Under the pieces are notes generated by a model, which was not told the DNA's origin, made no database searches, and saw only the letters and a program-made list of their open reading frames with translations. Source: Acidobacteriota bacterium (GTDB lineage Bacteria; Acidobacteriota; Blastocatellia; Pyrinomonadales; Pyrinomonadaceae). Taken from it: a stretch of 17,575 nt of DNA. The stretch's first letter is position 1; the number at the start of each line of letters is the position of its first letter. The stretch is taken from positions 1 to 17,575 of the forward strand of contig JADYZI010000226.1 in the NCBI GenBank assembly GCA_020853255.1, written 5' to 3'. A program made the translations under genes and the position numbers. This document shows positions 1-14,408 of the stretch, piece after piece.

Positions 1-2
1 CA

Positions 3-599
3 AAGCACTGGCAGGATATCGGCGGGATGAAGTTCCGCGAGGTCAACGGACAAGATCTGCTTGTTTTCAAACCGGATGAGAACGGACGGATGCAGTTGAT
101 AATTCCATATCCGTTCATGGTCTTTAAACGCGTCGGCCTTTGGGAAAACAATGCCGTGCTTATGCCCGTGCTTGTCGTGTCGCTGGCCGTAATGCTTCTG
201 ACACTCATTCTCTGGTTCGTTGGGTGGTTGGTGCGGCGTCATTACGGCAAGACGCTTGAACTTCCGCGGTTTGACATGCGGCTGCGCTGGGCGGTGAGGG
301 CCGTGTTCGCTCTGGCGATAATATTCGTGGTCTCATTGCTCGGCTTGCTCATTTACGGCATTCAGAACCTTGATTTTCTTGGCGGCACGGGCGGTCTGCT
401 GATCCAGTTGTCCCAGGTTGTCGGCATCATTGCCTCGATCGGAATGCTTGTCGTTTTCTTTAATGCATTCCATGCGTGGCGAAGCTCGATCTACGGGATC
501 TGGGGCAAACTGCAGGCGACACTGTTTGCTCTCGTCGCTCTCGGATTTCTTTGGTTCGTGTTTGCGGGGCATCTTATCTACATCAGTTCAAACTTCTGA
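3..599 (+). CDS. C-terminal membrane part of a probable serine hydrolase (5' truncated)
   Basis: The reading frame is open from base 3 without a stop, so the true start lies before the window; an internal ATG at 27 is not a convincing start. The visible part begins with a short soluble stretch containing VFKPDENGRMQL, then has about four hydrophobic segments (counted from the ATG at 27: roughly residues 45-69, 88-112, 124-147 and 163-186) and ends in a short hydrophilic tail. A beta-strand tail followed by such a membrane block is, from memory, typical of the C-terminus of beta-lactamase-family (class C-like) serine hydrolases in Acidobacteria. The catalytic domain is not in view, so this assignment is inferred from the tail alone. 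It could be another membrane-anchored protein. Its stop lies 9 bases before menC, so the two may be co-transcribed. Confidence 0.55.
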   Translation, partial: KHWQDIGGMKFREVNGQDLLVFKPDENGRMQLIIPYPFMVFKRVGLWENNAVLMPVLVVSLAVMLLTLILWFVGWLVRRHYGKTLELPRFDMRLRWAVRAVFALAIIFVVSLLGLLIYGIQNLDFLGGTGGLLIQLSQVVGIIASIGMLVVFFNAFHAWRSSIYGIWGKLQATLFALVALGFLWFVFAGHLIYISSNF

Positions 600-608
600 G
601 GCTATTAC

Positions 609-1730
609 GTGTTGAAACTTAACAAGCTTGAATTGCGCGAGATCGTTCTGCCGCTGAACGCACCGTTCGAAACCAGTTTCGGAACATCCGTCGAGCGGCG
701 GATAATGGTCATTCGTGTTTTTGATAAAGACGGCGCCGTTGGGTACGGCGAATGCACGGCACCCGAAAATCCGTTCTATAACCACGAGACGATCGAGACG
801 GCGTGGACGATAATCTCAAAATTTGCAGCCCCGCTGCTTGCTTCGGCAAATGTCGGTGCGGCGGAAGATGTGGGAACAGCGCTTGCCCCGATCCGCGGCA
901 ACCGAATGGCGATCGGCGGCGTCGAGGCGGCCGTTTGGGACCTCGAGGCAAGGCTGGCCGACAAGCCGCTTTGGCAGCATCTCGGCGGAACACTTCCTGA
1001 GATAAATTGTGGTGTATCCATCGGGCTGCAAAGCTCGCCCGAGGTTCTGCTTGAAAAAGTGACCCGCGAGGTCGAAGCCGGTTATCAGCGAATAAAGTTG
1101 AAGATAAAACCCGGCCAGGATATCGAACTGGTAAGGACCGTGCGCGAAAAGTATCCGGAAATTCTTTTATCGGTTGATGCTAACTCGGCCTACCTGCTTG
1201 ACCGCGATGCGGAATTGCTAAAGCAGCTCGATGACTACGGCCTGCTGATGATAGAACAGCCGCTTGCGGCCGGCGACCTTGTGGACCATGCGCGGCTGCA
1301 GCGAAAAATAGATACAGCGATCTGCCTTGATGAGTCGATAACAACTCTTTCGGATGCAAAGCACGCAATTGTTCTCGGTTCATGCCGGATCATCAATATC
1401 AAACTCGGCCGCGTAGGCGGCCATGCGTCGGCCCGTGCGATCCAGGAACACGCAGCGAGCAGCAATATCCCCGTCTGGTGCGGCGGGATGCTCGAGAGCG
1501 GCATTGGCCGGGCGCACAATATTGCAATGTCCACGCTCGCCGGCTTTACACTCCCCGGCGACGTGTCCGCCTCCGCACGCTATTGGGCCGAAGATATAAT
1601 CGATCCGCCTGTGACCGTCAGCGCCGCAGGCACGATAACTCCGCCGTCGCGGCCTGGGATCGGCTATGAGGTAAAAGAACCGCTGATCGAAAAATTGACC
1701 GTCCGCCGCGAGGAGATCAGTCTTGTGTAG
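609..1730 (+). CDS. menC: o-succinylbenzoate synthase / N-succinylamino-acid racemase (enolase superfamily)
   Basis: A full-length (373 aa) member of the muconate-lactonizing subgroup of the enolase superfamily, closest in appearance to type-II MenC (Bacillus, Amycolatopsis NSAR/OSBS). MenC dehydrates SHCHC to o-succinylbenzoate in menaquinone synthesis; many homologues also racemise N-succinylamino acids. Visible features are the N-terminal capping domain (PFETSFGT, GYGECTAPENPFY), the barrel lysines K163-L-K165, the metal ligands D190 (VDANSAY), E216 (IEQPL) and D241 (CLDES), the second catalytic lysine K265 (INIKLGRVGG), and the C-terminal GGMLESGIGRAHNIA and LPGDVSAS motifs. The spacing of these residues equals that of Amycolatopsis NSAR shifted by two. 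The start is GTG, seven bases after a GAGG that overlaps the upstream stop. No other men gene is in the window, so synthase versus racemase cannot be decided from context; a dipeptide epimerase is less likely. Confidence 0.9.
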   Translation: MLKLNKLELREIVLPLNAPFETSFGTSVERRIMVIRVFDKDGAVGYGECTAPENPFYNHETIETAWTIISKFAAPLLASANVGAAEDVGTALAPIRGNRMAIGGVEAAVWDLEARLADKPLWQHLGGTLPEINCGVSIGLQSSPEVLLEKVTREVEAGYQRIKLKIKPGQDIELVRTVREKYPEILLSVDANSAYLLDRDAELLKQLDDYGLLMIEQPLAAGDLVDHARLQRKIDTAICLDESITTLSDAKHAIVLGSCRIINIKLGRVGGHASARAIQEHAASSNIPVWCGGMLESGIGRAHNIAMSTLAGFTLPGDVSASARYWAEDIIDPPVTVSAAGTITPPSRPGIGYEVKEPLIEKLTVRREEISLV

Positions 1731-1737
1731 CCACCGA

Positions 1738-1752
1738 GGTAAAAATTTTACC
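1738..1752. repeat. Perfect short palindrome after menC
   Basis: GGTAAAAATTTTACC has 7-base arms around one central A and starts 7 bases after the menC stop. It is AT-rich in the centre and lacks a T-run, so it is not a standard terminator; it may be a protein-binding site or chance. Confidence 0.35.
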
Positions 1753-1848
1753 CGCACGTAGCAAACTAACCGAAAGCCCAATTACCTTGACGCAAAGCTA
1801 AATATCGCGTAAAACAATTCTACTTTCTCGCGATTACGCGACAGTTTT

Positions 1849-1873
1849 AGCCCACAGACCCTTCGGGCTTTTT
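1849..1873 (+). terminator. Possible weak intrinsic terminator
   Basis: AGCCC (1849-1853) can pair with GGGCT (1865-1869) across an 11-base loop and is followed by further T residues to 1873. The stem has only five pairs, so activity is doubtful. It lies between menC and the sdhC start, where an operon boundary would be expected. Confidence 0.3.
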
Positions 1874-1921
1874 CGGCAATTCGGATAATATAGATAATCA
1901 TCGGAGGTAAAACGCGGCCAG

Positions 1922-2731
1922 ATGGCATCGAACCTGGTTCAAATAACGCGCCGAGGCTTTGGTGAAACGATGCGGCGGGACGGATGGTGGATACCGTCGC
2001 TGCTGACGTTTCTCGGCTTTTCGGCATTTATCGTCTATTCGACGTGGGCGGCGTTTCAGGGCGAGCATTATTCGTTCGGGCCATACCTTTCGCCGATGTA
2101 CTCGCCGCTGATCTGGGAAGCTGCCGGCCAGCCGCTTTCACATCATTCGTGGCTTGGAGCATGGCCCGCGTGGCTGCCGACATATCTCCTCGTACAGCCG
2201 ATCACGCCCGCAATTCTGATCTTATGGGCACCCGGCGGATTTCGTTTTACCTGCTATTACTATCGCGGCGCATATTACAAAGCGTTTTGGGCCGACCCGC
2301 CCGCGTGCGCCGTCGGTGAGCCGCGCAACGAATATCGCGGCGAAAAGAAATTTCCGCTGATATTGCAGAATGTCCATCGATATTTTCTCTACGTCGCACT
2401 CGTTTTTATTGTCATCCTCGCGTACGACGCCATCGCCGCTACGCAGTTTGCTGACGGTTTCGGCATCGGCGTCGGAACGCTCGTTATGACGATCAATGTG
2501 ATCTTATTAGCGTCGTACACCTTCGGCTGTCACAGCCTTCGCCACCTCGTCGGCGGCCGCTGCGACACAATGTCAAACAAACCCGTCCAGCACAAACTCT
2601 GGCAATGGGTCAGCAAGCTGAATGGCAAACACATGCTTTTCGCATGGCTATCGCTGTTTTGGGTCGGGTTCACGGACTTCTACATCCGAATGTGCTCGAT
2701 GGGTTATTTTACTGACTTCAGAATTTTTTGA
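1922..2731 (+). CDS. sdhC: Succinate dehydrogenase membrane subunit, Sdh1-like (type F complex II candidate)
   Basis: This 269 aa membrane protein precedes sdhA and sdhB and resembles the single large membrane anchor of mycobacterial Sdh1 (Rv0249c, about 273 aa) rather than the small SdhC/SdhD pair. It should anchor SdhAB and pass electrons to quinone. About five hydrophobic segments are visible, near residues 24-44, 84-103, 150-172, 183-203 and 237-257. Conserved-looking Cys and His residues occur as C111 (RFTCYYYRGAYY), C129 (DPPACAVGEP), H152 (NVHRYF) and a cluster C203, H204, H208, C214 (FGCHSLRHLVGGRC). In the published M. smegmatis Sdh1 structure a Rieske-type [2Fe-2S] cluster with two His ligands lies in the membrane subunit. 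Which of these residues would be ligands here is not determined. GGAGGT at 1903-1908 is a strong ribosome site, 13 bases before the ATG, slightly long. A following REP/RAYT element separates it from sdhA. Confidence 0.82.
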   Translation: MASNLVQITRRGFGETMRRDGWWIPSLLTFLGFSAFIVYSTWAAFQGEHYSFGPYLSPMYSPLIWEAAGQPLSHHSWLGAWPAWLPTYLLVQPITPAILILWAPGGFRFTCYYYRGAYYKAFWADPPACAVGEPRNEYRGEKKFPLILQNVHRYFLYVALVFIVILAYDAIAATQFADGFGIGVGTLVMTINVILLASYTFGCHSLRHLVGGRCDTMSNKPVQHKLWQWVSKLNGKHMLFAWLSLFWVGFTDFYIRMCSMGYFTDFRIF

Positions 2732-2750
2732 GTTTTTCGCATCTTGCTCT

Positions 2751-2830
2751 TTTAAGTTGCCTCCAGCTTTAGCTGGTGGAAAAGATTGTTTTTTTAAGTT
2801 GCCTCCAGCTTCAGCTGGAGGAAAGGATTC
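2751..2830 (+). repeat. Two tandem REP hairpins downstream of sdhC
   Basis: Two direct copies of a 38-base unit (2751-2788 and 2793-2830) have a 42-base period. Each starts TTTAAGTTG and carries a hairpin. In the second copy CCTCCAGCT (2802-2810) pairs perfectly with AGCTGGAGG (2813-2821). In the first, CCTCCAGCT (2760-2768) pairs with AGCTGGTGG (2771-2779) with one mismatch. A third related copy lies in opposite orientation at 3408-3434, so the transposase gene between them is bracketed by its likely REP partners. The hairpins follow the sdhC stop by about 20 bases and could protect the 3' end of that message. Confidence 0.85.
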
Positions 2831-2842
2831 AAAGTAGGAGGA

Positions 2843-2890
2843 GGCTTTAGCCGAACTTTAACAAAAGAATTTCCTGTTGGTTTTAGCCTA
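2843..2890 (+). repeat. Left inverted repeat of the RAYT element
   Basis: It begins with GGCTTTAGCC, itself a small palindrome, continues GAA, and ends TTTTAGCCTA seven bases before the RAYT start codon. Read on the opposite strand, 3340-3386 gives a closely matching sequence with a few substitutions and small indels. Confidence 0.75.
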
Positions 2891-2897
2891 AAATGCC

Positions 2898-3347
2898 ATG
2901 CCCTGGGTCAGAGTTTGGTTGCATTTCGTCTGGTCAACCAAAAACCGTCATCCATACCTGACCGATGAGATCCGATCTAAGGTGTTGGCTCACATCCGCG
3001 AAAATGCGCGAGTGAAAGGGATTTACATTGACTTTATAAACGGATGGGTCGATCACGTTCATTGTTTGATCTCGCTGGGAACCGATCAGACAATTGAAAA
3101 GATAATTCAATTGATAAAGGGCGAGTCGTCATTTTGGATCAACAAGAACAAACTGACCAAAACAAAGTTCGAGTGGCAGGATGAATATTTCGTTGTTTCT
3201 GTTAATGAGGGATCACTCGACGGTGTTAGAAAATATATTGCGAAACAAGAGGAGCATCACAAAGGAATTTCTTTTGATGAAGAGTTTGAGAGTTTTCTGG
3301 CGAGAGCAGGATTTCAAAAGTTCAATGATTGCGGCAAGTCAGGCTAA
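2898..3347 (+). CDS. REP-associated tyrosine transposase (Y1 HUH, IS200-like)
   Basis: This 149 aa protein has the complete single-domain Y1 transposase core. The HUH motif is H53-V-H55 within VDHVHCLISL, and the catalytic tyrosine is Y113 in RKYIAKQEEHH, with Q117 four residues later as in IS608 TnpA. The N-terminal WLHFVWSTKNRHPYLT is the usual beta-1 strand of the family. RAYTs cut and rejoin single-stranded DNA at REP hairpins and are thought to spread REPs rather than whole IS elements. No essential motif is missing, so the enzyme could be active. An out-of-frame ATG at 2893 is ignored; ATG 2898 is the first in frame and has no clear ribosome site, suggesting low translation. Its stop codon lies within the right inverted repeat. 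There is no associated TnpB gene. Confidence 0.9.
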   Translation: MPWVRVWLHFVWSTKNRHPYLTDEIRSKVLAHIRENARVKGIYIDFINGWVDHVHCLISLGTDQTIEKIIQLIKGESSFWINKNKLTKTKFEWQDEYFVVSVNEGSLDGVRKYIAKQEEHHKGISFDEEFESFLARAGFQKFNDCGKSG

Positions 3348-3386
3348 CGCCAAAAGGAAAATTCTTGGTAATTTCGGCTAAAGCCG
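3340..3386 (-). repeat. Right inverted repeat of the RAYT element
   Basis: This is the inverted partner of 2843-2890. It overlaps the last codons and stop (3345-3347) of the transposase gene and ends in CGGCTAAAGCCG, a perfect small palindrome with AA in the loop. Confidence 0.75.
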
Positions 3387-3407
3387 TTTGTTTTGCCGCA
3401 TCGCTGT

Positions 3408-3434
3408 CCACTAGCTGAAGCTAGTGGCAACTTA
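3408..3434 (-). repeat. REP hairpin immediately upstream of sdhA
   Basis: CCACTAGCT (3408-3416) pairs perfectly with AGCTAGTGG (3419-3427), followed by CAACTTA. On the opposite strand it begins TAAGTTG, like the copies at 2751-2830. Two base changes in one arm relative to the copy at 2793 are matched by two in the other arm. It ends 8 bases before the sdhA ATG, so no ordinary ribosome site fits between hairpin and start. Confidence 0.85.
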
Positions 3435-3442
3435 GTTTCTTA

Positions 3443-5251
3443 ATGACCGAATACACAACATTTGAACACGACGTACTTGTCATCGGTGCCGGTGGTGCTG
3501 GGTTGCGTGCGGCGATTGAAGCGAGTGCGGCCGGCGTAAGCGTCGGGCTGATCTGCAAATCGCTGCTGGGCAAGGCCCATACCGTGATGGCCGAGGGCGG
3601 GATGGCGGCGGCGATGGGAAATGTTGACGACCGCGACAATTGGAAGGTTCATTTCTCCGACACGATGCGCGGCGGCCAGTATGTGAACAATTGGCGGATG
3701 GCAGAGCTTCACGCAAAGGAAGCCCCGGAGCGTGTTAGAGAGTTGGAAGCCTGGGGTGCGGTTTTCGACCGGACTAAAGACGGCAAGATACTTCAGCGCA
3801 ATTTCGGCGGACATCGCTATCCGAGATTGGCTCATGTCGGCGACCGGACGGGATTGGAACTTATCCGAACGCTTCAAGATCACGGCATTCATCAGGGCAT
3901 TGATGTCCACATGGAAGTGACGGTGATCTCGCTCTTGAAAGACGGCGACCGCGTTGTCGGCGTATTAGCCTACGAACGCGAGCATGGCCGGTTTCGAGTG
4001 TTCAAAGCAAAGGCGGTGATCCTCGCGACAGGCGGCGTCGGCCGGGCGTTCAAGATCACGTCGAACAGTTGGGAAGGAACCGGCGACGGCCACGCACTTG
4101 CGTATCACGCTGGAGCCGAGTTGATCGACATGGAGTTCATCCAGTTCCACCCGACCGGAATGGTCTGGCCGCCATCGGTCCGCGGAATTCTTGTGACCGA
4201 AGGCGTTCGCGGTGAAGGCGGCATCCTCAAAAACAGTGAAGGCAAGCGGTTTATGTTCGACGACATCCCGCCGCTTTACAAAGATCAAACCGCGAGCGAC
4301 CCCGAAGAAGGCTGGCGATATACTCAAGGCGACAAGACGGCCAATCGCCCACCGGAACTGCTCACGCGCGACCATGTCGCGCGCCGCATAAACCGCGAAG
4401 TGAAAGCCGGCCGCGGTTCGCCGCACGGCGGTGTTTATCTCGACATTGCGTGGATAAAAGAAAAGCTGCCGAACGCGGCCGAGCATATCAAGAAAAAGCT
4501 TCCCAGCATGTATCACCAGTTCATGCAGCTTGCAAATCTTGATATCACGACCACGCCGATGGAGGTCGGCCCAACGACGCATTACATAATGGGCGGCATC
4601 CGCGTTGATGCGGACACGCAAGCCTCGACCTTGCCCGGCCTGTTCGCATGCGGCGAATGCGCATCGGGCATAAATGGAGCGAATCGTTTGGGCGGCAATT
4701 CGCTTTCCGATCTGATCGTATTTGGTAAGCGGGCCGGTGAATATGCTGCCGAGTTTGCGAAAGAGAACGGCCACGGCACGATCGCTCAGGAGCAGATAGA
4801 ACAGGAATCAAAACGTGCACTCACTCCGTTTGACCGCGAAGGCGGTGACAATCCGTTCGTTGTTCAGCACGATCTACAAGACATGATGCAGGCAAAGGTC
4901 GGCATTGTCCGCATCGAAGAAGAAATGCAGGAAGCGTTGGTTGGCCTACGAGGATTGAAAGATCGTGCCGAGAAATGCTCCGTCACCGGAAATATCGACT
5001 ACAATCCGGGCTGGCATACCGCGCTCGACCTGCGAAATCTTTTGACCGTTTCCGAAGCGATCACCCGCTCCGCCATTGAACGAAAAGAAAGCCGCGGCGG
5101 CCAATTCCGCGAAGATTATCCGAACAAAGAACCGGAGTTTGCAAAATTCAACATCGCGGTCAAAGAAGTGAACGGCGAAATGCAGATATCTCATGTCCCG
5201 CTGCCGGAAATGCCGGCGGAGCTGAAACAAGTGATCGAAGAAAACAAGTAA
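3443..5251 (+). CDS. sdhA: Succinate dehydrogenase flavoprotein subunit
   Basis: The 602 aa protein carries all landmarks of the SdhA/FrdA family. The FAD-binding motif is GAGGAGLRAA (residues 15-24). H46 in KAHTVMAEGG is the expected covalent flavin attachment site. Likely substrate residues are H236 (QFHPTGM), R309 (TRDHVARR), H380 (GPTTHYIMGG) and R415 (NGANRLGGNSLSD). The capping domain and C-terminal helical domain are complete. It oxidises succinate to fumarate on the cytoplasmic face and passes electrons to SdhB. Gene order C-A-B and lengths parallel mycobacterial Sdh1. Direction (oxidation or fumarate reduction) cannot be read from sequence. The start is ATG 3443; it lacks a clear Shine-Dalgarno because a REP hairpin ends 8 bases upstream. 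The stop codon TAA (5249-5251) forms the first bases of the inverted repeat of the following GxxExxY cassette. Confidence 0.95.
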   Translation: MTEYTTFEHDVLVIGAGGAGLRAAIEASAAGVSVGLICKSLLGKAHTVMAEGGMAAAMGNVDDRDNWKVHFSDTMRGGQYVNNWRMAELHAKEAPERVRELEAWGAVFDRTKDGKILQRNFGGHRYPRLAHVGDRTGLELIRTLQDHGIHQGIDVHMEVTVISLLKDGDRVVGVLAYEREHGRFRVFKAKAVILATGGVGRAFKITSNSWEGTGDGHALAYHAGAELIDMEFIQFHPTGMVWPPSVRGILVTEGVRGEGGILKNSEGKRFMFDDIPPLYKDQTASDPEEGWRYTQGDKTANRPPELLTRDHVARRINREVKAGRGSPHGGVYLDIAWIKEKLPNAAEHIKKKLPSMYHQFMQLANLDITTTPMEVGPTTHYIMGGIRVDADTQASTLPGLFACGECASGINGANRLGGNSLSDLIVFGKRAGEYAAEFAKENGHGTIAQEQIEQESKRALTPFDREGGDNPFVVQHDLQDMMQAKVGIVRIEEEMQEALVGLRGLKDRAEKCSVTGNIDYNPGWHTALDLRNLLTVSEAITRSAIERKESRGGQFREDYPNKEPEFAKFNIAVKEVNGEMQISHVPLPEMPAELKQVIEENK

Positions 5252-5325
5252 CCACGAAATGGCACGAAAGATCACCAAAATAGGAGTTTCAACTTTCGTG
5301 TAAGTTCCTGAAATTTAGTGGTTAC
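5249..5325 (+). repeat. Left flank repeat of the GxxExxY cassette, able to fold on itself
   Basis: The region begins TAACCACGAAATGGCACGAAA and overlaps the sdhA stop. Its 3' end, ATTTAGTGGTTAC (5313-5325), is an imperfect reverse complement of its 5' end. It also pairs with 5711-5737 on the far side of the GxxExxY gene. ACCACGAAA and CACGAAA blocks are shared by both flanks. Confidence 0.7.
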
Positions 5326-5333
5326 CATCTTAA

Positions 5334-5711
5334 ATGGCAGAGTTGATCTTCAAAGATGAAGTATATTCGATCGTCGGGGCAATGTTTGAAGTTTATAAGA
5401 CACTCGGAACTGGTTATTTGGAGGCGGTGTACCAAGAGGCGTTGGCGGTTGAGTTTGGGCAACGCGGAATCCCGTTCGAGCGCGAACACCAACTCTCGAT
5501 CTTTTATAAGGACGTGAAACTGCAAAAGAAGTATTGCCCGGATTTCGTGTGCTTTGGGCAGATCATTTTAGAGTTGAAAGTATTACCCAAAATGACGAAG
5601 ATCGAGATAGCTCAACTTATCAACTACTTAAAGATAACGAAGATGAAGCTCGGGTTGCTCGCAAACTTTGGCAGTTCACCGCAACTCGAATGGAATAGAT
5701 ACGTTCTTTAG
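5334..5711 (+). CDS. GxxExxY family protein (predicted PD-(D/E)xK-like fold)
   Basis: A 125 aa protein with the defining motif G27-Y-L-E30-A-V-Y33, preceded by an N-terminal helix ending in VYKTLGTGYLE. Further residues fit the nuclease-like fold assigned to the family (PDDEXK_3): D70 in YCPDFVC, E80-L-K82 in ILELKVLP, and Q94 in AQLINYL. Biological function is unknown; family genes are common in multi-copy in some environmental phyla. No Shine-Dalgarno is obvious before ATG 5334. The gene lies between sdhA and sdhB, bounded by inverted ACCACGAAA/CACGAAA repeats. This suggests insertion as a cassette; a functional link with succinate dehydrogenase is unlikely. The frame is intact, so the gene may be expressed with the operon. 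Confidence 0.88.
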   Translation: MAELIFKDEVYSIVGAMFEVYKTLGTGYLEAVYQEALAVEFGQRGIPFEREHQLSIFYKDVKLQKKYCPDFVCFGQIILELKVLPKMTKIEIAQLINYLKITKMKLGLLANFGSSPQLEWNRYVL

Positions 5712-5737
5712 TGCTTTTTCGTGAAGTTTCGTGGTTC
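5711..5737 (-). repeat. Right flank repeat of the GxxExxY cassette
   Basis: Read on the minus strand this gives ACCACGAAA, three different bases, CACGAAA and a terminal CAC, in the same order as the left flank at 5250-5275. It starts at the last base of the GxxExxY stop codon and ends 10 bases before the sdhB ATG. Confidence 0.7.
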
Positions 5738-5747
5738 CAGTTCTTTT

Positions 5748-6494
5748 ATGGCACAAACAACATTCAGCATACGACGCGGCGGGAGCGAGGGTGGTGAGTT
5801 GGTCGATTATCGGACCGAGGTGACCGAGGGCATGGTCGTGCTTGATGCGGTGCATCAGATACAGGCCGAATCGGCGCCCGACCTGGCGTGCCGCTGGAAC
5901 TGCAAGGCGGGCAAATGCGGCTCATGCTCGGCGGAGATAAACGGGAAGCCAAAGCTGATGTGCATGACGCGGCTCGACACGATCGATATCACACAGCCGG
6001 TAACCATAGAACCAATGCGCGCCTTTCCGCCGATAAAAGATCTCGCAACCGATGTTTCGTGGAATTTCGAGGTCAAAAAACGCATCAAGAAATTCAGACC
6101 GCGAAAGCCCGACGCCGAGGACGGCACATGGCGAATGCAGCAATCGGACGTTGACCGCGTACAGGAATTTCGGAAATGCATTGAGTGTTTTTTGTGTCAG
6201 GACGTTTGCCACGTTCTCCGCGATCATAATAAGCACGCCGAATTTGCCGGCCCGCGGCATTACGTTTACACCGCCGCATTGGAAATGCACCCGCTCGATA
6301 CGGAAAACCGGATCGACGAACTGAAAAGCGAGATGGGCATCGGCTATTGCAACATCACAAAATGCTGCACAAAGGTCTGCCCTGAGCATATAACCATCAC
6401 GGATAATGCTATTATTCCGTTAAAGGAACGCGTCGTTGACGAGCATTTCGATCCGCTCGCAAAGCTCGTTAAGATCTTTAGACGTAAATCATAG
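5748..6494 (+). CDS. sdhB: Succinate dehydrogenase iron-sulfur subunit
   Basis: From ATG 5748 the protein is 248 aa, the same length as mycobacterial Sdh1 SdhB. The [2Fe-2S] ligands are C52, C57, C60 and C72 (NCKAGKCGSC, LMCMTRL). The [4Fe-4S] and [3Fe-4S] ligands are C144, C147, C150, C154 (CIECFLCQDVC) and C201, C207, C211 (CNITKCCTKVCP), in the standard spacing. Extra cysteines occur at C48 and C206. The subunit relays electrons from SdhA flavin to the membrane anchor. A longer frame from GTG 5721 is possible but those nine codons fall in the GxxExxY flank repeat, so ATG 5748 is preferred. The ribosome site is poor. The gene is separated from sdhA by the GxxExxY cassette. Confidence 0.95.
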   Translation: MAQTTFSIRRGGSEGGELVDYRTEVTEGMVVLDAVHQIQAESAPDLACRWNCKAGKCGSCSAEINGKPKLMCMTRLDTIDITQPVTIEPMRAFPPIKDLATDVSWNFEVKKRIKKFRPRKPDAEDGTWRMQQSDVDRVQEFRKCIECFLCQDVCHVLRDHNKHAEFAGPRHYVYTAALEMHPLDTENRIDELKSEMGIGYCNITKCCTKVCPEHITITDNAIIPLKERVVDEHFDPLAKLVKIFRRKS

Positions 6495-6504
6495 AATCTT
6501 GTGC

Positions 6505-6533
6505 TTGTGCTGCCTGCATTGTGTACAAATAAT
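6505..6533 (+). promoter_or_regulatory. Possible sigma70-type promoter for the DUF6978-like gene
   Basis: TTGTGC (6505-6510) and AATAAT (6528-6533) are separated by 17 bases, and the start codon follows at 6557. The match is fair for -35 and -10 boxes. It would give this gene pair a promoter separate from sdh. Confidence 0.35.
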
Positions 6534-6556
6534 ATCGCTGAATTTGCATCCTAAAT

Positions 6557-7048
6557 ATGGCTTTCGAGTCGATTACAGATAGAAAGATCGCGGAATTGCT
6601 TCAGATGCGGAAACGTGTGACTTATCCTGGCACTCGAGCCAAGAACAAGGATGGCCATGAACAATTTAATTACAAGGTAATATCTTCTGACGATGCGGAT
6701 CTAGAGTTCTCGCTTTACACTCGCCAGAATCTTCGAGCAGGTATGGAAGACGACTTTTCGTGTGGAGTAAGCTGGCTCGCTCCGAACGGTGAGGTATTGA
6801 CGCTTGCCCGCTATAACGGTTCGAGTCATCCGCACCGTAATCAAATTGAAGGAAACGTACTCAGTTGTGAATCTCATATTCATACGGCCACCGAACGCTA
6901 TATTCGGGCAAACAAGAAAGCGGAGGGATTTGCTGTGCCGACGGATCGATATCGGACCTTGAAGGGAGCTCTTCATTGCCTTGCTTCGGATTGCAGCATT
7001 GTTGGTTTATCAACGCAGGCGGATGCCCCGTCCCTTTTTGAGCAATGA
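6557..7048 (+). CDS. DUF6978-like protein, first gene of a two-gene unit
   Basis: A 163 aa soluble protein of no known function. The central part has a conserved-looking block: ARYNGSSHPHRN (residues 84-95) and SHIHTATERY (106-115). Histidines H91, H93, H107 and H109, with N87, N95 and R114, could form a metal or phosphate site. From memory this pattern resembles the DUF6978 family found beside DUF1828 proteins; I rate the family name as moderately sure. The stop overlaps the start of the next gene by four bases (ATGA at 7045-7048), which indicates translational coupling. Base composition is visibly more AT-rich than the sdh genes, suggesting acquisition. No membrane segment or signal peptide is visible. 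There is no strong ribosome site. Confidence 0.6.
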   Translation: MAFESITDRKIAELLQMRKRVTYPGTRAKNKDGHEQFNYKVISSDDADLEFSLYTRQNLRAGMEDDFSCGVSWLAPNGEVLTLARYNGSSHPHRNQIEGNVLSCESHIHTATERYIRANKKAEGFAVPTDRYRTLKGALHCLASDCSIVGLSTQADAPSLFEQ

Positions 7049-7830
7049 ATTTCGATCTTACGAAATTACAGAACAGTCTCTGCGAATCTCTTTGTTCGGA
7101 AGTGAGACTGCGCGAGAAGAACGGGAACCTTATCTCGGTAGATACTCCGTTTTCATTCCCTGATGGTGATCCATTGCAGATTTATTTGCGGGAGATGCCA
7201 GGTGGAATTCTCCGATTGACCGACATGGGTCATACGTTGATGCACCTGAGTTATGAAAATGACGTTGACAAGTTCAGGGTCGGTACACGTGGAAATTTAT
7301 TTCAGGGAATTCTTGCTGAATTTGACGTCGATGATGAAGATGGAGAATTATTTGTCAGCACAACAATTGATCGAGTGCCGTCTGCCATATTCAAGCTTGG
7401 TCAGGCATTAACTAAGATCAATGACCTTACTTTTTTGAATCGCGCGCGGGCAGAGTCTACCTTCTACGATGACCTCAAAGAGGCTCTGGAAAATGTTGTC
7501 CCTACCGATCTTATCAAACCCGATTATATTTATTCGGACATGGAGAATGCAGCGGATTATCCCATTGACTACCGGATTGAAGGAAAACATGCGCCGCTTT
7601 TCATGTTTGGTGTGCCAGGTCGTGACAAGGCCCGCCTTACAACGATAGTGCTAGAGAGACTACTGAGAAATAAGGCTGATTTTGACTCTTTAATTGTCTT
7701 CGCCGACCAATCAACACTGCCCCGTGGGGATGTCGCCCGACTAAGTAATACAGGCGGCGAAATGATTGCGTCGCTTGATGCTGTTGACGATTTTCGCCGA
7801 AAACTATTACGGCGCATCTCGCTTAATTGA
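7045..7830 (+). CDS. DUF1828/DUF1829 domain protein, second gene of the unit
   Basis: A 261 aa soluble protein. Residues about 30-120 match the DUF1828 pattern (FPDGDPLQIYLRE, GGILRLTDMGHTLMHLSY). Residues about 160-250 match DUF1829 (YPIDYRIEGKHAPLFMFGV, ARLTTIVLERLL). The function of both domains is not known to me. RIEGK (residues 177-181) contains an E-x-K that might belong to a restriction-nuclease-like fold, but the required upstream Asp is uncertain and this is speculation. The gene is coupled to its upstream partner by a 4-base overlap. Families of this kind often occur in phage or defence-rich accessory DNA, so a toxin-antitoxin or antiphage role is a reasonable hypothesis, without direct evidence here. 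Confidence 0.7.
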   Translation: MNFDLTKLQNSLCESLCSEVRLREKNGNLISVDTPFSFPDGDPLQIYLREMPGGILRLTDMGHTLMHLSYENDVDKFRVGTRGNLFQGILAEFDVDDEDGELFVSTTIDRVPSAIFKLGQALTKINDLTFLNRARAESTFYDDLKEALENVVPTDLIKPDYIYSDMENAADYPIDYRIEGKHAPLFMFGVPGRDKARLTTIVLERLLRNKADFDSLIVFADQSTLPRGDVARLSNTGGEMIASLDAVDDFRRKLLRRISLN

Positions 7831-7872
7831 GTTATTGGTGAATGGAACAGGGGATCGTACTGCCAATTAAGC

Positions 7873-8157
7873 ATGAAGTATTCAGAAGCAGCATGGGCTG
7901 AGAAGAAAAAGCGAGGCCTTGTGAAGTATCTGCTGATCGACGGCATTCTCTACACCGGCGGGCCGTTTGCGGTGGTGATGCAGATCATTGGAATTTTTCT
8001 GCTCCGCGATGAGGGGCAGACGATCGGGCAATATTTTACGTCAACCATGACCTGGGTGACATTCATTCTGCACGGAACGTTGTTTGGATCAGTCGTTGGC
8101 TTTTTGAATTGGAAGCGAAATGAAAGCTCGGCCGCGCGAAAGGACCTTTCGCCCTAG
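7873..8157 (+). CDS. Small two-helix membrane protein of unknown function
   Basis: A 94 aa protein with a basic, Lys-rich N-terminus (AEKKKRG), a hydrophobic segment around residues 18-44 and a second around 57-77, then a charged tail. Both ends are probably cytoplasmic. No family recognised. GC-rich codon use returns to that of the sdh genes, unlike the two genes just upstream. There is no clear ribosome site before ATG 7873. Confidence 0.55.
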   Translation: MKYSEAAWAEKKKRGLVKYLLIDGILYTGGPFAVVMQIIGIFLLRDEGQTIGQYFTSTMTWVTFILHGTLFGSVVGFLNWKRNESSAARKDLSP

Positions 8158-8200
8158 GCCCAGCGGTGTTGTACGCACGAACGCAGAAACTCAAACCGTT

Positions 8201-8683
8201 ATGTTCGAACTAAAACCGATCTCACACGAAGCAGTGCCCGCGGCACTTGAAAAGGCGAACCGCTATCGCCTGCTTAACGAACCAGGTGCGGCCGAGAGCA
8301 TTTATCTCGACATCCTGGCGGTCGAACCGGAAAATCAGGACGCGATCAAGAATCTCGTGCTTGCGATGAGCGACCGGTTCGGCAAAGATTATGCCGTCGG
8401 CGATACGAACATCAATGCTTACGTCGCAAAATTAAGCGATCCTTACCAGCGGGCGTATTATACGGGAATCGTTTACGAGAGGCGTGCAAAAGCAACGCTT
8501 GCGAAAGGCGGCCTGCAGGTTTACGAGCTTTTTATCCAGGCGATGGAATGGTTCGAGCGCGCAGAATCACTCAATAGCTCCGGCAATGAAGAGGCAATTC
8601 TTCGCTGGAACGGATGTGCGCGGATCATCAATCAAAATAAATTGCAGCCGCACGTTATGTCGGCGGGCGATACGCTCGAATAG
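8201..8683 (+). CDS. Tetratricopeptide-like protein of unknown function
   Basis: A 160 aa, mostly helical protein from ATG 8201. EKANRYRLLNEPGAAESIY and LAVEPENQDAIKNLVLAM (residues 17-56) look like one tetratricopeptide-type helix pair, and IQAMEWFERAESLNSSGN (112-129) like another. Such proteins usually mediate protein contacts; no partner is evident. A longer frame from ATG 8120 overlaps the upstream gene by 38 bases and adds a low-complexity Arg-rich N-terminus, so the shorter form is preferred. After the stop, GCTGAT (8705-8710) and ATCAGC (8718-8723) form a weak 6-pair hairpin without a T-run. Confidence 0.6.
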   Translation: MFELKPISHEAVPAALEKANRYRLLNEPGAAESIYLDILAVEPENQDAIKNLVLAMSDRFGKDYAVGDTNINAYVAKLSDPYQRAYYTGIVYERRAKATLAKGGLQVYELFIQAMEWFERAESLNSSGNEEAILRWNGCARIINQNKLQPHVMSAGDTLE

Positions 8684-8768
8684 TGATCCGTGCTGTGATA
8701 ATCTGCTGATTGAAAGCATCAGCTTCAAATTCCGTTAACATTCTTAGAATAAGGAAGGTATCAAAGGT

Positions 8769-9122
8769 ATGCCAGGAAAATTTGAGATCAAAACCGGAAA
8801 GAGCGGAAAGTTCAGCTTTAATCTTAAGGCCTCAAACGGCCAGGTCATTCTTTCAAGCGAAACATACGATTCACGAAAAGGTGCCGAGGGCGGCATCGCT
8901 TCGGTAAAAAAGAATGCCGGCAACAATGCCCGGTTCGAACGCAAGACGGCAAAAGACGGCTCGGCCTATTTTGTTTTGAAAGCATCGAACGGTGAGGTCG
9001 TCGGTAAAAGCGAGATGTATAAAACCGTCAAGTCGATGGAAAACGGCATTGCCTCGGTCGGCAAGAATGCTCCTGACGCACCGGTTGTCGATGCTCCGGC
9101 CGCAAGCGCGGCCAAGAAATAG
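8769..9122 (+). CDS. Duplicated DUF1508 (YegP-type, UPF0339) protein
   Basis: A 117 aa small protein made of two tandem DUF1508 repeats: residues about 4-50 (KFSFNLKASNGQVILSSETY, GGIASVKKN) and about 55-100 (AYFVLKASNGEVVGKSEMY, NGIASVGKN). A Pro/Ala tail follows. The family is widespread, compact and of unclear function; Escherichia coli YegP has the same two-repeat design. AAGGAAGG 10-17 bases upstream of the ATG, or the closer AAAGG, may serve as ribosome site. It appears to be a single-gene unit. Confidence 0.88.
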   Translation: MPGKFEIKTGKSGKFSFNLKASNGQVILSSETYDSRKGAEGGIASVKKNAGNNARFERKTAKDGSAYFVLKASNGEVVGKSEMYKTVKSMENGIASVGKNAPDAPVVDAPAASAAKK

Positions 9123-9184
9123 CACGGTCGGATTTAGCCTCCATAAATGGCACGGGCGGAAAACCCCGCGCTTTACCATTCATG

Positions 9185-9230
9185 CTTTGCGCCTTTGCGG
9201 TGAGGATCGTTTTCCCGCAAAGGCGCAAAG
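9185..9230. repeat. 16-base perfect inverted repeat (REP-like hairpin)
   Basis: CTTTGCGCCTTTGCGG (9185-9200) pairs perfectly with 9215-9230 across a 14-base loop. It lies between the DUF1508 and DUF1343 genes, 32 bases before the latter's start. There is no T-run after it, so it is better called a REP-like palindrome than an intrinsic terminator. Confidence 0.75.
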
Positions 9231-9261
9231 TTGCAAATAGATATCAAAACGCCTTACCAAA

Positions 9262-10446
9262 ATGACCACGACATCGAAACGAGTCCGTCCCGGTATCGAA
9301 GTACTCCTTGGCGATAAACTCGCGTCCATACGCGGCGAGCGGATCGGCCTTGTCTGCAACCAGGCCTCCGTTCTGCCCGACCTTCGCCACGCCGCCGATG
9401 TTTTTTTTGAGCATCCGGAAATAAACCTGACCACGCTCTTCGGTCCGCAGCACGGCATTCGCGGCGATGTGCAGTACAACATGATCGAAACGCCGCACGT
9501 CCGCGACACACGGACCGGCCTGATGGTCTATTCGCTTTACAGCGAAACGCGTGTTCCGACCGAAGAGATGGTTGCTGACATCGACACCTTCGTCATTGAC
9601 CTTCAGGACGTCGGCTGCCGCATTTACACATACACATACACGATGGCGAACTGCATGATCGCCGCCGCGGAATTCGGCAAACGCATCATAGTCTGCGACC
9701 GGCCGAATCCGATAAACGGCGTCACGGTCGAGGGCAATGTTACCGAAAAAGAGTTCACATCATTTGTCGGCCAGTTCGAATTGCCGACGCGGCCGGGCAT
9801 GACGATCGGCGAAATGGCGCGGATGTTCAATGAGCATTGGGGCATCGGCTACGAGCTCGAGATCATCGAGATGGCAGGCTGGCGGCGCGAGATGTGGCAC
9901 GAAGAAACAGGCTTGCCGTGGGTTCTTCCGTCGCCGAACATCCCGACCATCGATACATGCGCCGTTTTCCCCGCAACGGTCCACCTCGAAGGCACCGAAC
10001 TAAGCGAAGGCCGCGGGACAACGCTCCCGTTCGAGCTGAACGGCGCTCCGTTCATCGACCCGTATGCCTGGGCCGAAGAATTGCGCAAATTCGATTTTCC
10101 CGGTGTCGCATTCCGCGAGGCCTACTTTCAGCCGACCTTCTGCGAGTTCGCCGGCCAAACATGCGGCGGCGTCCAACTCCACGTCACCGATCGCTCGGCC
10201 TTCACGCCCGTCATCGTCGGCATTGCCATGGTCAAAACCGCCTACGATATGTACACCGAACATTTCCAATGGCGCCAAAACGCGTACGAATATGAATTCG
10301 GCAAAAATCCGTTCGACGTCGTCTGCGGAACGGACAAGATCCGCAAGGCGATCGAATCGAACGCCGCCTTTTCTGATCTGCATGACGCGGCCGGAACCGG
10401 CCTCGCAGAATTTAAGGGAATCCGATCAAAATACTTGCTGTACTAG
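9262..10446 (+). CDS. DUF1343 protein, NamZ-like exo-beta-N-acetylmuramidase family
   Basis: A full-length 394 aa member of DUF1343. Motifs in order are LVCNQAS (residues 30-36), LFGPQHGIRG (59-68), DLQDVGCRIYTYTYTM (113-128), DRPNPING (146-153), PTRPGMTIGEMA (175-186), LPSPNIPT (222-229) and LEGTELSEGRGTTLPFE (242-258). A Bacillus subtilis family member, NamZ, removes terminal N-acetylmuramic acid from peptidoglycan fragments. Two oddities: there is no signal peptide, and an in-frame stop at 9238-9240 rules out a longer N-terminus, so the protein is probably cytoplasmic. The family motif PEHG appears here as PQHG (Q63), which from memory is typical of a separate subgroup and may alter catalysis. 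Activity on muropeptides is therefore inferred, not assured. Confidence 0.85.
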   Translation: MTTTSKRVRPGIEVLLGDKLASIRGERIGLVCNQASVLPDLRHAADVFFEHPEINLTTLFGPQHGIRGDVQYNMIETPHVRDTRTGLMVYSLYSETRVPTEEMVADIDTFVIDLQDVGCRIYTYTYTMANCMIAAAEFGKRIIVCDRPNPINGVTVEGNVTEKEFTSFVGQFELPTRPGMTIGEMARMFNEHWGIGYELEIIEMAGWRREMWHEETGLPWVLPSPNIPTIDTCAVFPATVHLEGTELSEGRGTTLPFELNGAPFIDPYAWAEELRKFDFPGVAFREAYFQPTFCEFAGQTCGGVQLHVTDRSAFTPVIVGIAMVKTAYDMYTEHFQWRQNAYEYEFGKNPFDVVCGTDKIRKAIESNAAFSDLHDAAGTGLAEFKGIRSKYLLY

Positions 10447-10453
10447 CGGCAAA

Positions 10454-10482
10454 GTAATAGTATTACATTGTGGAGTATTACC
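10454..10482 (+). promoter_or_regulatory. Probable VapB operator with two AGTATTAC sites
   Basis: GTAATAGTATTAC (10454-10466) is a perfect palindrome with a central G. AGTATTAC occurs at 10459-10466 and again at 10474-10481, 15 bases apart, the second overlapping the ribosome site GGAG (10472-10475). AbrB-fold antitoxins commonly repress their own operon by binding such sites; this assignment is by position and symmetry only. Confidence 0.6.
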
Positions 10483-10746
10483 ATGAAATTGACGTCTAAA
10501 TGCCAGGTCACCGTGCCGCTTGCGGTTCGTGAGAAACTCGGGCTCTTCCCCGGCTCCGAGGTTGAATTCATTGTCGATGGAAAATTCGCGAAGCTCGTTA
10601 AAGCGAAGAAAAAGAAAGGAACGATGAGTCGCGGCGAGCGGATAGTCGCTCGTGCGATTGGCAAGGGAACGGTAAATCGCGATCTATCAACCGATCAGAT
10701 AATGGCCTGGACACGCGGTTGGGGCGAAGATGATTTTGATCGATAG
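10483..10746 (+). CDS. vapB: AbrB-fold antitoxin (VapB-type)
   Basis: An 87 aa protein whose first 45 residues are a SpoVT/AbrB-type swapped-hairpin DNA-binding domain (MKLTSKCQVTVPLAVREKLG, LFPGSEVEFIVDGKFAKL). The C-terminal part, with LSTDQIMAWTRGWGEDD, is the likely toxin-neutralising tail. ATG 10483 is preferred over the TTG at 10468 because GGAG lies eight bases before it and the domain begins there. The gene overlaps the downstream PIN toxin by 17 bases, the usual coupled arrangement. Confidence 0.88.
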   Translation: MKLTSKCQVTVPLAVREKLGLFPGSEVEFIVDGKFAKLVKAKKKKGTMSRGERIVARAIGKGTVNRDLSTDQIMAWTRGWGEDDFDR

Positions 10747-11131
10747 CAACGTGCTGCTCGATCTTTTCGATCAGCGATCGGAATGGCATGCATGGTCGGC
10801 TGCTGCCTTAGCTTCCGCGGGCGACGCTGCGGAATTGGTGATCAACCCGATCATCTACGCTGAGGCTTCGATCAGGTTCAGAACTCCCACCGAATTCGAC
10901 AACGAATTTCCGCCAGAAGACTTTCTCCGACGTGCATTGCCATTTTCTGCGGCATTTCTCGCCGGTAAGGCACATTTTGAGTATCGCCGACGCGGCGGAG
11001 TTCGCGCCGCGACTCTTCCCGATTTTTTTATCGGTGCCCATGCGCTGGTCGCCGGATACAAGATACTCACGCGCGATCCGCGCCGGTTTCGCAGATATTT
11101 TCCGTCGGTAGAATTGATCGCACCCGAATAG
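10730..11131 (+). CDS. vapC: PIN-domain ribonuclease toxin (VapC)
   Basis: A 133 aa PIN-domain protein. The expected acidic residues are D5 (ILIDSNVLLD), E45 (PIIYAEASI), D98 (LPDFFIGAHA) and D116 (LTRDPRRF), so the metal-dependent RNase site looks complete. VapC toxins cleave specific RNAs, often tRNA, when VapB is degraded. It starts within the antitoxin gene and is its only partner. Nothing indicates a broken or inactive toxin. Confidence 0.92.
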   Translation: MILIDSNVLLDLFDQRSEWHAWSAAALASAGDAAELVINPIIYAEASIRFRTPTEFDNEFPPEDFLRRALPFSAAFLAGKAHFEYRRRGGVRAATLPDFFIGAHALVAGYKILTRDPRRFRRYFPSVELIAPE

Positions 11132-11196
11132 CGAAATAGTTCTATCGTAGATCTGCCCAGGCCGCTGACACAGTGACGAACGACAAAAGAATTCTG

Positions 11197-11226
11197 TTGT
11201 GGTCCATGAAGGCCCTCTGATATATT
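11197..11226 (+). promoter_or_regulatory. Possible promoter of the secreted protein gene
   Basis: TTGTGG (11197-11202) and TATATT (11221-11226) are 18 bases apart, and the GTG start follows at 11248. Only consensus similarity supports this. Confidence 0.35.
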
Positions 11227-11247
11227 GGACTGTCGTAGGAGCCGCCT

Positions 11248-11949
11248 GTGAGAAAGCATTTAAGAATCTGCCTTTTGGTTTTGATCGGTGCCCCGATCAT
11301 CGGCATTGCCCAGAAACCGGCGAAGGTTGTCTTCTGGAGCGACGATGCGGTGTGCGGCCGCAGGAATGAGTTGGTCACAGCCGATGACAAGTTAAGTTGC
11401 AGCAAGACCCGATCAAACGGGAAAGACCGCATGACCTTGGTCCATAACGGGGTCAGTTTGTCAGTGCGTGAGATCGTGGATTACGCGTATTTTTTGCTTA
11501 AGATCGAGATCAAGAATCAGGGCAAAGAGGCAATTTACTTCTATGGCCCTTCCTTGATGGCAGCTCAATATCGCGATGAGGCTGAATTTCTCAATGGAAA
11601 GGAACCGATAGTATTTGGAAAACCATTAACGGCGCCTCCTGCTCCTGTTAGTCAGTTTGGTTCGCCCGGGGGCAAGACAGGAGTTCCTCATAGCCCCAGC
11701 TTTTCCAATCAAACTCGAGCCGCGTCAGAGCCTGGCTCAAAGGGGGCCATAGGAGTTAGCAGTTTGCCATCCCGAACGGTCCCAAATTATACGCCGCGGG
11801 GGCCAGCCCTATACACTTCGCGGATCTTACCCGGCAAAGATGCAGGAGGACTGATCTATTTTCAGCTTGAAAAGCAGTCAAAGTTCAAGATCTTGTTTGT
11901 CGAGATCGGCGATACAAAATACGTTTTTCAGCTGAGGCCTTCCGAATAA
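11248..11949 (+). CDS. Secreted protein of unknown function with Pro/Ser-rich linker
   Basis: A 233 aa protein with a GTG start six bases after TAGGAG (11236-11241). Residues 1-21 form a signal peptide (MRKHLRICLLVLIGAP, cleavage near GIA-QKP). The mature part has a beta-rich domain (about 25-120) with two cysteines (C37, C51) and motifs such as FLLKIEIKNQGKEAIYFYGP that look like an immunoglobulin-like or surface-associated fold. A Pro/Gly/Ser-rich linker spans about residues 128-190. A final short strand region ends KYVFQLRPSE. I do not recognise the family. It probably acts in the periplasm or outside the cell. Confidence 0.65.
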   Translation: MRKHLRICLLVLIGAPIIGIAQKPAKVVFWSDDAVCGRRNELVTADDKLSCSKTRSNGKDRMTLVHNGVSLSVREIVDYAYFLLKIEIKNQGKEAIYFYGPSLMAAQYRDEAEFLNGKEPIVFGKPLTAPPAPVSQFGSPGGKTGVPHSPSFSNQTRAASEPGSKGAIGVSSLPSRTVPNYTPRGPALYTSRILPGKDAGGLIYFQLEKQSKFKILFVEIGDTKYVFQLRPSE

Positions 11950-11985
11950 TCGTCGGGCTCTATTTTCGGGCATCCTCGTCCAAAC

Positions 11986-12019
11986 AAGGCACACTCCCTA
12001 CCGGTCGTGTTTCTGCCTT
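11986..12019 (+). repeat. 34-base dispersed repeat, copy 1
   Basis: AAGGCACACTCCCTACCGGT, continued to GCCTT at 12019, has partly complementary ends (AAGGC/GCCTT). It is matched by 14259-14292 in opposite orientation with a single mismatch across 34 bases. It encodes the last six codons and stop (RQKHDR) of the minus-strand ASCH-like gene. Confidence 0.85.
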
Positions 12020-12588: not shown

Positions 12589-12594
12589 TTCGAT

Positions 12595-12710
12595 GGAACG
12601 CCGGCGTCCCGCCAGCGTGTGGAAATCCGACTTCTTGCATTTTCCTCACCGACTCTTCGCTTGCAGCCCGCTTCCGTGAGGTACTCACGCCGGCGGGACG
12701 CCGGCGTTCC
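12595..12710. repeat. Large inverted repeat (25-base arms) between two minus-strand genes
   Basis: Positions 12595-12613 are the perfect inverse of 12692-12710 (19 bases, GGAACGCCGGCGTCCCGCC). After one mismatch the match extends another five bases, giving arms 12595-12619 and 12686-12710. The 66-base centre is unique in this window. The right arm ends 4 bases from the DUF853 stop codon; the left arm begins 7 bases before the ASCH-like start. Confidence 0.85.
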
Positions 12711-12714
12711 GATC

Positions 12715-14229: not shown

Positions 14230-14254
14230 AAATTTAAAATAATATTGTCCTCCG

Positions 14255-14374: not shown

Positions 14375-14408
14375 TGTATTTCTCCTCGTCGATCTACGCT
14401 GTCCCACC

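Follow-up and report, generated by a model that had tools for sequence, protein, structure and literature searches.

The intervening sequence (IVS) in the 23S rRNA of Coxiella burnetii is, in the passages of PMC4990558 that deal with it, 428 nt long; its ends form a stem of 28 bp, it holds a small S23p open reading frame (ORF) and tandem GACAGAT heptamers, and it is excised by RNase III. Repetitive extragenic palindromic (REP) sequences with their RAYT transposases, and REPINs, are portrayed in parts of PMC2817692 and PMC3116915 as intergenic palindromes with geneless copies and a linked small gene between inverted copies. Here, we describe a 17,575-nt stretch of an Acidobacteriota bacterium (assembly GCA_020853255.1, contig JADYZI010000226.1, positions 1 to 17,575 of the forward strand; the whole stretch is called the window) in which the succinate dehydrogenase genes sdhC, sdhA, and sdhB all have open reading frames yet are split by two cassettes. 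The unit between sdhA and sdhB carries a gene for a GxxExxY protein and, on the sequence comparisons given below, belongs to a wider class in which a small gene (GxxExxY or S23p) lies between inverted arms of short tandem repeats. We hold it probable that these inverted-iteron cassettes are best read as elements similar to 23S intervening sequences, with protein genes rather than rRNA around them.

The GxxExxY cassette and the two genes that enclose it are arranged as follows:

3443 to 5251, + strand: sdhA, open ORF (NF005866, 979 bits, cutoff 819)
5250 to 5279, + strand: 5′ arm of the GxxExxY cassette, with three iterons (CACGAAA / CACGAAA / CACCAAA); inverted repeat, arm motif CRCNRAD
5334 to 5711, + strand: GxxExxY protein, 125 aa, PD-(D/E)XK nuclease fold, with PD...ELK and G-x-x-E-x-x-Y present
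5707 to 5736, + strand: 3′ arm of the GxxExxY cassette, with reverse complement iterons; overlaps the end of the ORF and, in predicted RNA folds, pairs with the 5′ arm
5748 to 6494, + strand: sdhB, open ORF (NF009052, 404.6 bits, cutoff 256); the ORF list has an earlier GTG at 5721, and relatives align from the ATG at 5748

The protein scores 137.6 bits against TIGR04256 (cutoff 35, E 2e-40) and 134.5 bits against PF13366 (cutoff 22, E 3e-39), and its gene is flanked, as the original prediction had proposed, by inverted repeats of its own, which are 80% complementary. The 5′ arm begins within the sdhA stop codon (5249 to 5251), where it had been placed. It is also one side, the left, of a local hairpin; inspection of the sequence puts the right side at about 5293 to 5325. 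With the 23S IVS carrying S23p, as far as the relevant passages of PMC4990558 describe it, the cassette shares a length of ~430 to 490 nt, terminal inverted repeats that close off a small ORF as a stem of ~28 to 30 bp, and tandem heptamers, and the S23p family itself occurs in sister cassettes of the class. Unlike the IVS of those passages, it lies between sdhA and sdhB rather than inside 23S rRNA and carries a gene for a PD-(D/E)XK nuclease, S23p being confined to the sister cassettes; its ORF is under apparent purifying selection, whereas the Coxiella ORF is described there as undergoing reductive evolution.

The arrangement is common. PF13366 was found in 98 of 119 family genomes, at 1 to 10 copies each, and we sampled 134 GxxExxY loci, the window included (113 from the family and 21 from other phyla in the motif test; 22 from other phyla in the motif-free count). 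The arms consist of CRCNRAD heptamers (CACGAAA, CACGAAT, CGCAGAT, CACAGAG, etc.), two to four per arm and 8 to 12 nt apart, inverted across the two sides. Such heptamers occupy both arms at 66 of the 113 family loci (with at least three units each in 51; any arm in 94) and at 6/21 loci of other phyla (any arm in 14), compared with 2/451 control ORFs (any arm in 48) and 0/2680 shuffles. The motif was defined on the first 53 loci, and those that followed served as a held-out set; both arms are present at 36/54 loci of the first set and 30/59 held-out family loci. One locus entered twice, as L144 and L259, and is counted double in the CRCNRAD arm counts, the arm agreement, the 108-row tree, and the direct-repeat test; it was reduced to one from the junction counts on. 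A motif-free test for inverted repeats, with its threshold at the 99th percentile of control ORFs, gave a similar contrast: 101/134 GxxExxY loci versus 9/452 control ORFs overall and 15/22 versus 2/164 in other phyla.

Furthermore, the usual place of a cassette of this class is the gap from the stop codon of one gene to the start codon of the next, with the cassette read in the direction of the operon. This is the position of 58 of the 101 loci with inverted arms, 2 having the opposite direction, and of 43 of the 71 loci with both motif arms, 1 being opposite; random points fell there in 232 of 3000 cases and mostly within genes. The arms and the gene also belong together. Arm types match between the two arms of one element in 69/72 cases (shuffled mean 24.6, maximum 40), and arm type changes only 12 times on a protein tree of 108 rows (shuffled minimum 42). 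With one row per recognized junction context, there are 11 changes over 74 rows (shuffled minimum 32), so the match between arm and clade is not just shared descent at one locus, to the extent that contexts were recognized; recognition required both flanks to match, and 37 further pairs share one side only.

A similar architecture surrounds S23p (PF05635), which was found at 2 to 16 copies in 27 of 28 genomes picked for the window's type of sdh. Of 70 S23p loci fetched, 69 could be located. The motif-free test scored 68 and detected inverted arms at 59, compared with the 9/452 control ORFs, and 37 of these 59 lie stop to start in operon direction, with none in the opposite direction. In other phyla, 30 loci were fetched, 25 located, and 23 scored, of which 16 have inverted arms (a few of them simple repeats), compared with 2/164 controls. 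The S23p arms use different codes (GTGACAR, AGTTGCAGG, GAAGACC, and others, as judged by eye at 29 loci), and CRCNRAD arms on both sides were found at none of 29 S23p loci. Arm similarity tracks protein similarity in both families, with Spearman coefficients of 0.48 for GxxExxY and 0.23 for S23p (permuted maxima, 0.10 and 0.14) when shared junctions are included.

At the sdhA-sdhB junction, a GxxExxY gene is also present in the family loci L106, L109, and L115 and in L260, which was found via the gene and stands outside the 29 junctions of the survey below; no match was found in a comparison set of 80 sdh loci. L260 lies on a contig of genome G080, whose contig C116 has another sdh operon, and contamination is possible. 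Between the window and L260, sdhA, the cassette, and sdhB align in step at ~80% nucleotide identity, and the GxxExxY genes have 95% amino acid and 81% nucleotide identity, with a dN of 0.037 and a dS too high to compute. This pattern shows strong purifying selection on GxxExxY in this pair. The original prediction had left room for a casual insertion, and this is not supported for the GxxExxY unit, whose recurrence at the same junction in four relatives, one with a 95% identical protein, points to an old cassette and not a fresh insert. For GxxExxY, this goes some distance toward what the prediction had named as its refutation, relatives with both cassettes at the same positions; the other cassette was seen at its junction in no other locus.

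L001, an Acidobacteria metagenome contig, is the closest relative found (sdhB 97% identical in amino acids and with a dS of 0.43 to the window) and has neither cassette. Its gaps of 268 nt (sdhC-sdhA) and 53 nt (sdhA-sdhB) contain other hairpin repeats. Together with the touching junctions of other relatives, this bears out the view of the two units as inserts. Since L001 is much closer to the window than L260 is, L001 or an ancestor of it would have lost or replaced the cassette, unless sideways transfer took place. In L001, the sdhA-sdhB gap is filled by a GC-rich hairpin (4961 to 5016) that also matches the window at 12593 to 12617 and 12688 to 12711, and an extra insert of ~150 nt lies 5′ of sdhC in L001 (1836 to 1988) that is missing in the window (1834/1835).

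Free-standing homing endonucleases combine fixed junctions, patchy presence, and a conserved nuclease. A homing-like selfish cassette, in which the PD-(D/E)XK nuclease cuts a cassette-free junction and repair copies the cassette in, would account for lineages locked to junctions, for patchy presence, and for selection on the protein. The lineages do keep their junctions, to judge from the tree: 65 rows share 23 contexts among them, and the tree needs 22 changes of context label, the fewest possible (shuffled minimum 50). The cassette is also present in the window and L260 and missing in the much closer L001. Additionally, GxxExxY distances at sdhA-sdhB depart from flank distances, and the GxxExxY alignment rejects the flank topology (approximately unbiased [AU] test, p 1.4e-4). 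This conflict is one-sided, as the flank alignments are compatible with the GxxExxY topology (AU p 0.22). At a junction read as sufD-sufS, common to 8 genomes, the GxxExxY and flank distances agree (rho 0.83 over nonindependent pairs), and the GxxExxY alignment is compatible with the flank topology (AU p 0.095), which speaks against homing. The GxxExxY tree there, which is poorly resolved, is rejected by the flanks (p 3e-6); the longest open frame was taken as the downstream flank and is possibly antisense. In a third context, of four rows, GxxExxY and flanks are congruent. The present class further differs from free-standing homing endonucleases in its inverted iteron arms and in sister cassettes of the same form that carry S23p, which is not a nuclease. 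Homing is itself only a candidate here, and we consider it unlikely as the explanation of the class.

Junction filling in the sdh operon extends well beyond the window. The family set comprises 31 sdh loci, the window included, with 27 measurable sdhC-sdhA and 29 measurable sdhA-sdhB junctions; five places were fetched twice (L002/L119, L003/L123, L006/L128, L012/L121, and L001/L104). Gaps of >40 nt are present at 20/27 sdhC-sdhA and 21/29 sdhA-sdhB junctions, and the more distant relatives L124, L126, and L128 have touching TAATG/TGATG junctions. The contents of the gaps vary by genome and include iteron hairpins, GC-rich hairpins, small ORFs, and GxxExxY cassettes. In the loci compared, sdhCAB has relatives with touching genes, and the junctions of the family are mostly filled by different units, often bounded by palindromes. 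In L108, the full sdhA is preceded in the sdhC-sdhA gap by a CACGAAA hairpin, a second, short fragment of an sdhA start, and an apparent HigB/HigA toxin-antitoxin pair (names from reading). The same gap in L109, L116, and L133 holds ORFs that read as small membrane-like proteins with no evident hairpin, possibly a third type of passenger. L259 has a GAG-type GxxExxY cassette at sdhC-sdhA between 10-nt direct repeats (ATTGATTTAA).

As controls, we used the nuo and atp regions of 20 genomes each, with gene names assigned from length and order. Gaps of >40 nt were found at nuoG-nuoH (8/18), nuoL-nuoM (10/16), and nuoM-nuoN (3/12), compared with 2/19 at atpI-like to atpB and 2/13 at a further atp junction. 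The comparison omits atp o8-o7 (14/17), where the long gap looks native; nuo o0-o1 (5/10), o5-o6 (8/14), o15-o16 (11/11), and o10-o9 (8/19), where opposite-strand ORFs are probably spurious; and junctions found in four or fewer genomes. A hotspot exclusive to sdh was therefore rejected, and junction filling is wider than sdh because nuo junctions are also filled, although sdh is fuller.

The finding of unrelated hairpins and small ORFs at the same junctions across relatives, together with a Y1 cassette at sdhC-sdhA in the window only, is what would be expected if the cassettes were tolerated junk that does nothing, junctions being the sole places in dense operons where palindromic repeats land harmlessly. 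The strong purifying selection on GxxExxY in one pair, the strong directional bias, and the agreement of arm type with protein clade all speak against this explanation, to which we give a rather low probability.

The second cassette of the window, between sdhC and sdhA, is unrelated to the first (PF01797 as opposed to PF13366) and comprises the following features together with the gene 5′ of it:

1922 to 2731, + strand: sdhC, membrane subunit of a Sdh1-type succinate dehydrogenase, intact ORF
2753 to 2825, + strand: left end of the Y1/REP-like cassette, two tandem hairpins TTGCC-TCCAGCTTYAGCTGG (repeat search, direct and inverted families)
2898 to 3347, + strand: Y1 (HUH) transposase, IS200/IS605-like, 149 aa (PF01797, E 8.6e-28)
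3404 to 3434, + strand: right end of the Y1/REP-like cassette, hairpin CCACTAGCTGAAGCTAGTGGCAACTTA, inverted relative to the left end and ending 8 nt before the sdhA ATG

Repeats at 2753 to 2780 and 2795 to 2825 are 84 to 86% complementary to 3404 to 3434. This unit had been called a REP-RAYT element. The inverted REP-like hairpins do flank a Y1 gene, and the right one ends at the predicted distance from sdhA; however, the RAYT label calls for caution, since the protein scores 28.8 bits against NF047646 (cutoff 80) and passes the IS200/IS605 model NF033573 (70 bits, cutoff 55). Two RAYT-like traits are present: inverted arms, found in the window by the repeat search and at 24/30 Y1 loci by the motif-free test, and a geneless composite of like hairpins 3′ of sdhB in L260. 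Relatives of the Y1 gene occur in 25/28 genomes, and many of them, read by eye, adjoin the same type of left-end hairpin. At sdhC-sdhA, the Y1 gene was found in none of the 30 other family loci (26 with a measurable gap) and in none of the 80 comparison loci; among the loci compared, the element was seen at this junction in the window alone. It has the look of the REP/RAYT and REPIN systems as portrayed in those parts of PMC2817692 and PMC3116915, whereas the sdhA-sdhB cassette differs from them in that it is without a Y1 transposase, has arms of tandem iterons rather than single REPs, and belongs to junction-locked lineages. RepRanger, in the portion of PMC12306157 concerned, tabulates counts for three Acidobacteriota genomes.

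The operon itself is of the Sdh1 type, with SdhA and SdhB passing their equivalog models and the genes in the order C-A-B. The same order is present in the Mycolicibacter loci L063, L064, L067, and L075, in line with the predicted resemblance to mycobacterial Sdh1. In profile searches of the window proteins, sdhC had no Pfam or NCBIfam match, and a homologue of it (33 to 98% identity) lies immediately 5′ of sdhA in 77 of the 80 comparison loci.

In minimum-energy RNA folds, the outer arms are predicted to pair in both window cassettes. The Y1 cassette folds clearly better than its shuffles (z of −4.5, 20 shuffles). Among filled gaps of 40 to 250 nt, a z below −3 was obtained for 18/22 in sdh, 9/15 in nuo, and 3/16 in the atp region. 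Folding also slightly shortens the outer path from stop to start, which is below the shuffle mean in 16/22 sdh gaps (median of 10 versus 16 nt) and in 7/15 nuo gaps; as a device that juxtaposes stop and start, this was rejected, the effect being small and not general. Intercistronic REPs in enterobacteria are held to set subunit ratios or to stabilize parts of the mRNA, and the hairpins of the sdh junctions might likewise be regulatory spacers that set Sdh subunit ratios or stabilize mRNA parts. The folding of the filled sdh gaps and the shortened path fit such spacers, but nuo junctions are filled likewise, and relatives use unrelated sequences.

The translation starts point both ways on the same question. 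The absence of a ribosome site before sdhA and sdhB had been proposed as a result of the insertions; a Shine-Dalgarno (SD)-like motif is indeed missing 5′ of both genes in the window, but this is not peculiar to it, with the motif present 5′ of sdhC in 15/24 loci, of sdhA in 2/27, and of sdhB in 4/29, the latter six all at touching junctions. With a slightly wider motif and duplicates removed, the end of sdhC keeps an SD-like motif in 5/7 touching versus 2/20 filled junctions, whereas the end of sdhA keeps it in 14/24 filled as well as 5/5 touching junctions; loci are counted in these comparisons without correction for kinship. Because the motif at the sdhC end is mostly lost in filled junctions, filling has probably altered how sdhA starts, a point in favor of regulatory spacers, and the contrast at sdhB is weak. 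Overall, regulation as the reason for the hairpins is improbable, and the inverted-iteron cassette resembling a 23S IVS is still the reading that we prefer.

Geneless palindromes with arms like those of the cassettes appear at other junctions. Control regions totaling 525 kb contain 12 CRCNRAD palindromes without room for a gene, 10 of them intergenic (shuffles, 0), and an exact-pattern search found CGCAGAT palindromes in 9/28 and CACGAAA palindromes in 15/28 genomes (reversed-pattern controls, 0). In genome G032, which has a GxxExxY cassette of its own (L324), the 25-nt arm of that cassette recurs exactly at at least five geneless palindromes, and a nearly identical loop occurs at about 12 places or more, both by eye among the matches listed. 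The recurring arm and the nearly identical loops speak for dispersal. L220, L223, and L227, which share one junction, have GxxExxY with a complete CACGAAA hairpin on either side.

Several observations weigh against the class as we read it. Inverted arms were below threshold at 33/134 GxxExxY loci, and both arms are in the wrong orientation at 9/134 in the motif test. The sdhA-sdhB cassette folds only modestly better than its shuffles (z of −2.0; 3/100 as good), and, given the one-sided conflict between trees, descent at that junction may not have been strictly vertical. A direct repeat of ≥9 nt is found at only one locus (L259, the same as L144; two rows of 72), with a slight excess of repeats of ≥6 nt (17/72 rows versus 13.6% in mismatched pairs). 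Target-site duplication was thus rejected as a general mark of transposition, unlike what a DDE cut-and-paste transposon or miniature inverted-repeat transposable element would leave. Near-identical gene-bearing copies within one genome were not noticed, although no systematic search was made, and current mobility is therefore unproven. Mobilization in trans of AAA-type palindromes within the same genome likewise found no significant support; they do not significantly track GxxExxY of the AAA clade (10/16 versus 5/12 genomes by presence of the clade, Fisher p 0.45, one-sided Mann-Whitney p 0.085, with the clade assigned via identity to the window protein rather than the tree and the palindrome counts summing forward and reverse matches).

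Elsewhere in the window, a gene pair just 3′ of sdhB (6557 to 7830) encodes a DUF6978-like protein, under the Pfam cutoff, and a DUF1828 protein. The DUF1828 gene matches the candidate-defense model PDC-M24B, both genes match phage families (phrog_27326 and phrog_5059), and the region that holds them (6494 to 7873) has no counterpart in L001. The window has no Rfam match at gathering score, and a match to a microRNA family (E 0.93) was dismissed. S100-A8 (calgranulin A/MRP8) chains, the sole result of a sequence search against solved structures, were taken as chance (E 0.02 to 0.26).

For the inverted-iteron cassettes, we infer both mobility and RNA processing. A cassette read in operon direction would have no need of a separate promoter. 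Within the mRNA, the two arms may pair as a stem that closes off the small ORF, as in the 23S IVS; this stem is probably a cutting site for RNase III or an enzyme like it, which would explain how inserts inside important operons are tolerated. The GxxExxY nuclease probably recognizes the iterons of its own clade and, on rare occasions, moves or preserves the unit at the DNA level. Once inserted, the unit would for the most part pass down together with its junction, maintained by selection on the protein and subject to patchy loss or replacement, as in L001.

The small-gene cassette class is widespread in many bacteria and apparently undescribed so far. A literature search gave nothing on it among the matches listed, subscription papers and preprints lying outside its scope, so that novelty is provisional; in papers that name GxxExxY (TIGR04256/PDDEXK_3 PF13366), the passages on GxxExxY are silent on arms or operon junctions. 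A broader proposal is more tentative, with chances slightly short of even: inverted-iteron intercistronic cassettes, with different small genes (GxxExxY, S23p, and perhaps others) that each have their own iteron code, may form a class across phyla that colonizes the stop-start junctions of important operons, with 23S intervening sequences as its rRNA branch and many unexplained intergenic palindromes as its geneless members.

GxxExxY and S23p are both common as gene families, and neither, to our knowledge, has a role assigned to it. The address that they share (inverted iterons, stop-start junctions, operon direction, and an arm code for each protein clade) offers a substrate that can be tested for both families, namely, the arms of each, and it ties the intervening sequences of rRNA to elements lodged between protein genes, a set that is far larger. 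A further lesson is one of caution: a hairpin at an operon junction in a genome of this kind is not necessarily a regulator built for the operon in question.

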